Shown: piece after piece, positions 44,753 through 51,265 of the stretch
Layout: each line of letters starts with the position of its first letter
Position numbering within the stretch: position 1 is the stretch's first letter
DNA from: Myxococcales bacterium
Lineage (GTDB): Bacteria; Myxococcota; Myxococcia; Myxococcales; Myxococcaceae
Length of the DNA: 64,000 nt
Assembly: GCA_030681895.1 (NCBI GenBank)
Contig: JAUXRI010000315.1
Coordinates: 1-64,000, forward strand
Direction of reading: 5' to 3'
Position numbers and translations under genes: made by a program
The notes under the pieces: generated by a model
Told to the model about the DNA's origin: nothing
Database searches by the model: none
Seen by the model: the letters and a program-made list of their open reading frames with translations, nothing else

Positions 44753-44753
<1 letters not shown>
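43128..44753 (-). CDS. Sensor histidine kinase with multipass membrane domain
   Basis: 541 residues. About five to six membrane helices fill residues 50-200 (LGWLAVCTVFGVF; SVGILAVVLMVSVL). A coiled coil of about 70 residues precedes the phosphoacceptor His283 in GIAHELNNP. An HATPase domain (NLVDNAL, DDGPGM, GMGLAIVAAI) completes it. The ATG shares one base with the stop of the upstream regulator gene, so the two form a classical two-component pair. The signal sensed is unknown. Confidence 0.9.
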
Positions 44754-46128
<1,375 letters not shown>

Positions 46129-48337: not shown

Positions 48338-49879
48338 ATGTCCCGATTGGTCCTGCTGTCGTCGCTCCTCACCGTCTCGTCTGCGGCGCACGCGTTCTCC
48401 ATTGGCACCGTCGCGACGAAGGGCTGTCACGAGCGCATCACCCTCGAGGCCGCGCGCGCCGCAGGCCTCGTTCCAACCGCTGACGTCACCATCGAAGACC
48501 GCGCGCTCCTCGCGACGCTCCCCTTCAACGTCGAGGGCGCGTGGGACCGCGGCACGCTCGCGCTGCTCATCGGGCTGCGCGACCCCGACTTCCACGGCGT
48601 GGCCGCGTCTGACTTCGTCAGGCTCTCCGAGGTGCACCTCTCGCCAGTGCTTCAGCAGGAGCACTGTCTGCGCGCGCCCGGTGAGGATGAGGGACGTGGA
48701 GACCAGGAGGCCCTCGTCAGCTGCAGGGTCTTCATCGCGAACGAGCTGCGCCTCGCGGCGAACGCAGCGCCAGGCGCGACCGAGGCGGTCCTCGTCGCGC
48801 TCACCAACCAGACGACGTCGGTGCAGCTGCCCTCTGCCGAGTTCCACCTGGGGCGCGCGCTGCACGCGCTGCAAGACGGCTTCGCGCACACCCTTCGCAC
48901 CGAGGACTTCAGCACCGTGCGCTCGGTGTTCAACTACGTCGACCCGCTCGTGGGCAGTGGCTACCAGCGTGCTCGCGACGGCCACCCGCACCTCTCGGAG
49001 TACGACGCCTGCGACGAGGGCACGGCCGCCGCGCGCGCCCGGGTCGCGACCGAAGCCTCACGTGACGTCATCGCCGCGCTCACACGGCAGCGCGAGAGCG
49101 CCGAGGCCCGCATGTCGACCGCCGAGCGCGTGCTCGACCGCGTGCTCGTGTACCAGCCGGCCTGTGACGATGGCGCTGCGTGGTGCACCGAGGCCGACGC
49201 GCTGCTCCTGCAGACGCTCCCGCCGGCGGTTGGGTGCAACGTCTCGCCTGCGCAGCCCCTGTCGATGCTCGTGCTCCTCGTCCTCTTCGCGGTGGCTCGT
49301 CGGGCCCAGCTGCGCCGTCGCCTGACGCTCTTCGGCGCAGTCGCGGTGCTGGCGTTGCCGCTCGCCGCGCGCGCAGATGAGGCGCAGCAGGTCACCGAGA
49401 CGTCCACGGCGCCTGCCGTTCCCTTCGCGCTCCGGCTTCGTCCCGCGGTGAGCCTTGGCGTCTCGGCCGAGCGTGGCGCTGGCGTGGTGTCGGTGGGCGT
49501 GCGGCTGCCGCTCCAGGGCCGCTTCGAGCTGTACGGGGACGTCGAGTTCAACCCGTGGTTCGACGCGCTCGCCGGCAAGGTGAGCGCAGGCGCTCTCAAC
49601 TCTGTGGTGGGGGCCACGGTGCGCTGGGCGAGCGTCGGTGCCGTGGAGCTGCGTTCAGGCCTTGGTCTCGGCGTGAGCGTGTTGCTGCACGACACCGTCG
49701 CCGCCCGCGCCGGAGCCCTCGGCCCCTTCGCGCAGCTCGCCGTCATCAACGTGCTCATCCCCGGTCCCGGCTCGACGCGCTTCGAGGTGCGCCCCGATGC
49801 AGTGCTCAGCATTCCGTCGGTGCGCGGCGTGCCGCTCGTGTACCACCAGTACCGCATGGTTCTGACGATGCGCTTCTGA
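48338..49879 (+). CDS. Phospholipase C-like domain fused to outer-membrane barrel
   Basis: 513 residues, signal peptide ending AHA. Residues 28-200 carry GCHERIT and HLGRALHALQDGFAHT (His170, His176, Asp180, His184), the metal-ligand pattern of zinc phospholipase C/S1-P1-type folds. A MYXO-CTERM-like tail then appears: GC300, a hydrophobic stretch and an Arg cluster. It is followed at once by a second signal-peptide-like run (LTLFGAVAVLALPLAARADE) and a beta-rich domain ending in VLTMRF. It looks like two proteins joined in frame; an internal GTG at 49292 could start the second. Confidence 0.7.
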   Translation: MSRLVLLSSLLTVSSAAHAFSIGTVATKGCHERITLEAARAAGLVPTADVTIEDRALLATLPFNVEGAWDRGTLALLIGLRDPDFHGVAASDFVRLSEVHLSPVLQQEHCLRAPGEDEGRGDQEALVSCRVFIANELRLAANAAPGATEAVLVALTNQTTSVQLPSAEFHLGRALHALQDGFAHTLRTEDFSTVRSVFNYVDPLVGSGYQRARDGHPHLSEYDACDEGTAAARARVATEASRDVIAALTRQRESAEARMSTAERVLDRVLVYQPACDDGAAWCTEADALLLQTLPPAVGCNVSPAQPLSMLVLLVLFAVARRAQLRRRLTLFGAVAVLALPLAARADEAQQVTETSTAPAVPFALRLRPAVSLGVSAERGAGVVSVGVRLPLQGRFELYGDVEFNPWFDALAGKVSAGALNSVVGATVRWASVGAVELRSGLGLGVSVLLHDTVAARAGALGPFAQLAVINVLIPGPGSTRFEVRPDAVLSIPSVRGVPLVYHQYRMVLTMRF

Positions 49880-49993
49880 GGAGGGGAGACGCCGTTTGAC
49901 GGGCGATGACGGACTTCGCCGGATGGTGTCGGGCCCGGAGCGGGCGTCCCCGAGGGGCCGAGCACCGGCCTGAGGATTGCTAAGGACTCCGAC

Positions 49994-50367
49994 ATGCGCA
50001 CGATGCTGCTGGGGTCGATGCTGATGCTGGTGCTGAGCGGGTGTCTCACACGTTCGCGAGCGTCGCGTTGGCCGCAGCACACGAGGCGCTTCCGTGTCCT
50101 TCCCTGATGCAGGACGCCCACAGCGCCGGGCTCGACCAGCAGGCCGATGCGCGGTGGAACGAGGGTCAAACGCAGGCCATGTTCGGCGTGCTCCTCGGTG
50201 GCGGCGTCGGCTCGACGCAAGAGGTGGGCGCGCCGCGGCGCCGGATTTTCAAGGGCTGCGGCGTGCTGTTGCAGTGCGACGTCACGTACCCGATGCGGGA
50301 TTCTCCTCGAGCGACGTGCGTGCGGCTCGAGCCGGAGGCCTTCACCGCTCAGCAAGAGGGGCTCTGA
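49994..50367 (+). pseudogene. Small lipoprotein gene, frameshifted paralogue
   Basis: The start (MRTMLLGSMLMLVLSGC, lipobox) closely matches the intact paralogue at 50900-51265. The frame changes at about 50051-50071. The remainder (ALPCPSLMQDAHSAGLDQQADARWNEG...LQCDVTYPMRDSPRATCVRLEP) continues in a different frame to the stop at 50367. One missing base would restore it. The two copies flank an unrelated lipoprotein gene. Confidence 0.75.
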
Positions 50368-50867: not shown

Positions 50868-50899
50868 GTCACGGGTGTGTTGCGAACCTGAGGTTCACC

Positions 50900-51265
50900 A
50901 TGCGAACAGTGGTGCTGGGGTCGATGTTGCTGCTGAGCGGGTGTCTTCGGTCTCGCGAGGCCGCGATGGCGGCGGCACAGGAGGCGCTCCCCTGTCCCTC
51001 GCTGACGCAGGACGGCCACAGTGCCCGGCTCGACCAGCAGGCCGATGCGATGTGGAACGAGGCGCAATCGCTGGCCACGATGGGCCTGCTCCTCGGCGGG
51101 GGCGGCGGCGGCAACGTGCAAGAGGTCGGCGCGCCCCGGAGACGGTTCTTCGAAGGCTGCGGCGTGCGGTTGCAGTGCGACATCACGTACGTGGTGCGAA
51201 ATTGTCCTCGAGCGACCTGCGTGCGGGTCGAGCCGACGCCTTCCACCGAATCGCCGGGGCTCTGA
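50900..51265 (+). CDS. Small Cys-containing lipoprotein, intact copy
   Basis: 121 residues, signal peptide MRTVVLGSMLLLSGC with a lipobox. The helical opening AMAAAQEALPCPSLTQDGHSARLDQQADAMW is followed by a Gly-rich turn and a C-terminal CGVRLQCDITYVVRNCPRATC cluster. No known family. Paralogous to the frameshifted gene at 49994-50367. Confidence 0.65.
   Translation: MRTVVLGSMLLLSGCLRSREAAMAAAQEALPCPSLTQDGHSARLDQQADAMWNEAQSLATMGLLLGGGGGGNVQEVGAPRRRFFEGCGVRLQCDITYVVRNCPRATCVRVEPTPSTESPGL

Follow-up and report, generated by a model that had tools for sequence, protein, structure and literature searches.

A MYXO-CTERM-like sorting tag joined directly to a second signal peptide suggests a polyprotein format for envelope proteins in Myxococcota

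Results

A gene of a Myxococcales bacterium (GenBank assembly GCA_030681895.1, contig JAUXRI010000315.1), located at 48338..49879 on the plus strand of the window, i.e., the whole stretch of 64,000 nucleotides that was analysed, appears from its sequence to encode a polyprotein of two envelope proteins, and we regard it as probable that the chain is cut by signal peptidase I and that its N-terminal half is freed by myxosortase. The open reading frame is uninterrupted over 513 amino acids, and comprises a possibly phospholipase C-like domain, a MYXO-CTERM-like tail, a signal peptide and an outer-membrane barrel, an arrangement found in one frame in 22 homologous junctions. The features described below all lie on the plus strand of the window.

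Two halves with different predicted folds

The ATG at 48338 is preceded by a GGAG ribosome-binding site and begins an N-terminal signal peptide (residues 1–19, 48338..48394), with a cleavage site between AHA and F. The mature N-terminal half (48395..49231) is predicted by AlphaFold2 to be a confident helical domain (pLDDT 85.5), and it is rich in Cys, His and Asp. Nine of its His, Asp or Glu residues are invariant in every alignment row that covers them, and H31, D84, H109, H176, D180, H184, H218 and D223 are likewise conserved wherever a row covers them, a His/Asp set that, judged by sequence, fits a metal site. The original prediction called this half phospholipase C-like, and the label stays tentative, as does enzymatic activity. 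Weak matches to Zn-dependent phospholipase C (PF00882) occur in six of 15 family members, with a best E of 0.013, and none of the 15 reaches the Pfam cut-off. The best PDB matches by Foldseek are to the Bacillus cereus phospholipase C (PC-PLC) and are not significant (E 0.57), a comparison of the N-half profile with clear PF00882 members gave nothing significant, and a sequence search of solved structures returned none for this half. Since Pfam, Foldseek and profile comparison all stayed below significance, a firm phospholipase C assignment was dropped, and we describe the domain as only distantly phospholipase C-like.

The mature C-terminal half (49376..49876) ends in Phe and is predicted to be an eight-stranded outer-membrane beta barrel. 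The AlphaFold2 model has eight strands (pLDDT 91.7) and matches solved eight-stranded outer-membrane barrels in the PDB, with an E of 4.6e-4 for PagL and a probability of 1.00 for OmpA, OprF and NspA. A search of solved structures by sequence with this half gave a single meaningless match. The same segment has a weak Pfam match to DUF6603 (E 5.6e-4), below the cut-off.

A sorting tag and a signal peptide that share an arginine cluster

Between the two halves lies an internal MYXO-CTERM-like tag (49232..49321), consisting of G299-C300, a short hydrophobic run of about 13 residues (308–320) and a basic cluster, RRAQLRRR (321–328). The tail scores 13.3 bits against TIGR03901, for which the cut-off is 20, and a plain NCBIfam scan of the protein and of the tail alone gave no match; homologous tails, including those of G101, G032, G107, G002a, L123 and others, pass the TIGR03901 cut-off. 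G299-C300 is invariant in the fused sequences that were aligned first (n = 8), and a Cys stands before the helix in 22 of 22 junctions. The tag of the window is not C-terminal, since 185 residues follow the Arg cluster, whereas it is C-terminal in the split relatives G033, G129 and G189. The genome also encodes a myxosortase, MrtX, which matches NF040593 with 342.8 bits (cut-off 180).

The Arg cluster at the same time forms the n-region of an internal type I signal peptide (49298..49375), with an h-region at residues 329–343 and a cleavage site after A344-R345-A346, before D347. The second hydrophobic run thus ends in AARA, followed by DEA and then the barrel domain, and the segment has the properties expected of a type I signal, i.e., a basic n-region, a hydrophobic core and small residues at −3 and −1. 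All 22 junctions keep the Cys, the hydrophobic run, the basic cluster, the second hydrophobic run and the cleavage site. Against shuffled versions of the same segments, the signal-peptide pattern that follows the Arg cluster scores higher in these 22 junctions, with a Fisher combined p of about 3e-23, a value that is indicative, given a home-made score and related, non-independent rows. The layout first noticed in the window, a tail of Cys300, hydrophobic run and Arg followed directly by a signal-peptide-like run and a barrel-like domain, is therefore borne out by the sequence and by its relatives.

Elsewhere in the window, a small lipoprotein gene is present as two tandem copies (49993–50367 and 50899–51265) that are 80–84% identical and lie about 900 bases from each other, separated by another lipoprotein gene; the first copy has its signal and body in different frames and looks broken or misassembled. 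On the minus strand (44753–46128), one response regulator has its receiver domain in one frame and its sigma-54-type AAA domain in another, which suggests a frameshift or an assembly error. A plasmid comparison gave no match.

Conservation and evolution of the joined frame

A survey of 195 Myxococcota genomes, most of them metagenome assemblies, with profiles of both halves detected the N-half in 24 genomes and the barrel half in 25. The two adjoin at every locus where both sides are visible, the exceptions to visible pairing (G067a and G168) being on short contigs. Reading frames were rebuilt per locus, and also for 17 named loci from GTDB genomes, a set that in several cases repeats the same contigs. 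After removal of duplicates, 22 junctions, including that of the window, show a single fused frame. The locus of G038 is divided between two contigs and that of G058 contains an N-gap, yet in each the junction is complete. The two halves were also sought as separate adjacent genes and were found as such in three genomes, overlapping by four bases (ATGA) in G033 and G129 and about 29 bases apart in G189. Both halves of these split relatives have complete signals of their own, so that either can work without the other.

The linkers span 52 to 162 codons, hairpin included, and vary in length. The original prediction took a continuous frame with conserved sequence across the junction in close relatives as a sign against its reading; the frame is conserved, but the sequence of the linker is not, and only the sorting and export signals are retained.

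A tree of 39 N-half rows (IQ-TREE, midpoint root) divides them by gene order, the split between the two orders being fully supported. In the clade where the N-half precedes the barrel, 19 rows are fused, and three split rows occur at two places, nested inside the fused forms. This pattern suggests, on a midpoint root that was not independently inferred and that limits the claim of later splitting, an old fusion followed by two later splits. Fusion through a recent loss of a stop codon, one of the two explanations offered at the outset, does not fit these data, because the joined frame is old and spread across several families, and it is the separate-gene forms that look derived.

In the sister clade the order is reversed, with the barrel gene upstream of that for the N-half, and two members, L123 and L127, have an additional fused barrel, which is a second, independent fusion. 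Other N-half relatives of this clade (L100, L101 and L121) stay in frame past the tag, where a lipoprotein-type signal is followed by a Cys-rich domain of a different kind. L103 has one open reading frame with two barrel domains of the window's barrel family, upstream of the enzyme-like gene.

Is the junction translated as one chain?

In the DNA of the window, an off-frame stretch of equal length is open in about 40% of cases, and for comparable off-frame stretches the figure ranges over 6–79%. An open frame alone is therefore weak evidence, because off-frame stretches in GC-rich DNA are often open. Stop-free passage in phase through 22 junctions over deep divergence, by contrast, would not be expected by chance. 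In the two closest pairs, linker differences at the first, second and third codon positions number 36/24/57 (G051/G058) and 22/15/35 (L114/L115), with third positions richest, and all linker gaps are multiples of three; between more distant pairs the linkers align too poorly for the codon-position pattern to be judged.

It could be argued that the barrel is translated separately from an internal start and that the joined frame is incidental. A GTG (Val319, 49292..49294), proposed originally as the start of the second protein, does exist in frame and would yield a well-formed signal peptide, MARRAQLRRRLTLFGAVAVLALPLAARA. Chance alone leaves many GC-rich frames open, and the barrel begins separately in the split relatives. 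However, no Shine-Dalgarno-like sequence precedes this GTG, and its use as a start is unlikely. Further, G002a has no in-frame ATG, GTG or TTG between the Cys and the second hydrophobic run, and its barrel must therefore derive from an upstream start, while in L119 and L127 the only in-frame starts of the junction lie far upstream. The missing ribosome-binding site and the case of G002a rule against the internal GTG, and together with a frame kept in 22 diverged junctions and the codon-like evolution of linkers in close pairs they leave separate translation of the barrel improbable.

Alternatively, the product might be one mature two-domain protein that stays uncut between its halves, with the hairpin as a lasting membrane link. 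The halves do adjoin everywhere and are mostly fused, but a signal-peptidase-type site is present in 22 of 22 junctions, relatives with separate genes exist, and in most relatives a linker of 52–162 codons looks too short to reach from a hairpin in the inner membrane to a barrel in the outer membrane. We consider an uncut protein less probable still than an internal start. A search for homologues with peptide data returned none. Least credible is a recent accident confined to this genome, such as loss of a stop or an error of assembly or sequencing. The assembly behind the window is indeed a draft (352 contigs, completeness 87.85), yet the same fused frame is present in same-genus relatives (about 51% identity) and in several Myxococcota families, and seven other genes of the genome share such a join. 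Sequencing error and recent stop loss were accordingly rejected.

Discussion

Proposed processing of the chain

Taken together, the frame and the signals kept in 22 junctions favour the other explanation offered at the outset, a polyprotein cleaved in mid-chain, with the cleavages themselves predicted from the signals. We hypothesize that the gene is translated once and that the chain is exported by Sec from its N-terminal signal. Export would halt at the MYXO-CTERM helix, and the chain would turn back at an Arg-rich cytoplasmic loop, after which the second signal peptide would drive renewed export, so that the chain would form a short inner-membrane hairpin. Signal peptidase I would then cleave after A346 to free the barrel for the outer membrane, while MrtX would cleave next to Cys300 to release the enzyme-like half for lipid-anchored display at the surface. 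The Arg cluster would play a double role in this scheme, as the cytoplasmic end of the tag and as the positive n-region of the signal peptide. With such a shared cluster, the stop and start codons between two genes of this kind could vanish without a change in topology.

Because the two proteins are near-constant neighbours, they are probably functional partners like TraA and TraB, in this case a surface enzyme and its barrel.

Recurrence of tag-to-signal joins

MYXO-CTERM tags of the window's genome were counted by family searches with TIGR03901 and TIGR03382, and the matches were traced downstream. By our own count, about 83 tails were credible once matches lacking the Cys-helix-Arg pattern had been dropped. 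Almost all of them end within about 20 residues, while about eight continue in frame over more than 150 residues, each of the eight running directly into a signal peptide. The signal is of type I in the window, in L198 (C137) and L202 (C45), which join an Ig- or cadherin-type adhesin to an OmpA protein, in L200 (C285), a repeat protein with a final MYXO-CTERM, and in L250 (C344), a matrixin protease with a small domain. It is of the lipoprotein type in L199 (C214), where MopE-type metal-binding repeats are joined to a lipoprotein, in L201 (C166), a metalloprotease-like protein with a second MYXO-CTERM protein, and in L203 (C47), a VWA protein with a lipoprotein. The parts flanking the eight joins, on either side, are unrelated among the genes. 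L200, L201 and L204 end in a second MYXO-CTERM tag, so that a single chain may give rise to two tagged surface proteins; the two halves of L204 are alike, as in a tandem duplication.

A profile of the join matched in all of 60 relatives, many of the matches spanning only the tag part of the profile. Among 25 near-full-length matches that were inspected, 22 are true in-frame joins and three have a stop; the profile was built from such joins, which makes this a biased rather than an unbiased census. We lean towards the view that these joins represent a general polyprotein format of Myxococcota, in which the Arg cluster of the tag serves as the n-region of the next signal peptide, of type I or lipoprotein type, and one open reading frame supplies two separately sorted envelope proteins, sometimes both tagged, in a fixed ratio. 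The format would involve about a tenth of the tags of this genome, and in the course of evolution genes would pass back and forth between fused, overlapping and separate states.

If the cleavages are true, many annotated giant surface proteins of myxobacteria would be two proteins, and predictions of their topology, location and function would change. The joins would also offer a simple test bed for myxosortase, signal peptidases and the handling by Sec of a two-signal hairpin, and they draw attention to new partnerships reminiscent of TraA/TraB, of an enzyme or an adhesin with a barrel.

Comparison with known systems

Cellular polyproteins are unusual in bacteria. One that is cut at an internal signal peptide is FbcH, the cytochrome b/c1 precursor of Bradyrhizobium, which differs from the present case in having no sorting tag and in giving rise to inner-membrane respiratory proteins.

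A centrally placed sorting tag is known from HVO_0405 of Haloferax volcanii, likewise a gene-fusion protein, for which archaeosortase-dependent cleavage has been shown (PMC7157517). It differs in that it involves archaeosortase and PGF-CTERM and is described as strain-specific, and the excerpts of that report available to us describe no second signal peptide (PMC7157517). In TraA/TraB of Myxococcus xanthus, the open reading frames overlap by four bases (PMC3325183), as in G033 and G129, and a MYXO-CTERM surface protein is likewise paired with an outer-membrane, OmpA-like partner. However, TraA and TraB are encoded by two genes, function in kin recognition and have domains unrelated to those of the window.

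A close likeness is to MXAN_5598 of M. xanthus, one example of the rare open reading frames with internal MYXO-CTERM motifs, described in a study in which MrtX was shown to cleave MYXO-CTERM tags (Guo, Haft and Wall 2025, PMC11980579). As in the window, one open reading frame holds an exported N-terminal part, an internal MYXO-CTERM and then an outer-membrane barrel part, and the protein was proposed to be a gene fusion with a processed N-terminal part (PMC11980579). MXAN_5598 differs in combining a large adhesin part with an OmpA part, whereas the window joins an enzyme-like domain to a bare eight-stranded barrel. The account of MXAN_5598, in its available excerpts, makes no mention of a signal peptide right after the tag, of lipobox versions or of the frequency of such joins (PMC11980579), and no earlier report of tag-to-signal-peptide joins was found in the open-access literature. 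What is new here, set beside the excerpted accounts of these systems, is the direct join of tag and signal peptide, together with its conservation in one family whether the genes are fused, overlap or stand apart, the existence of lipoprotein variants, and a measure of how often it occurs in one genome.
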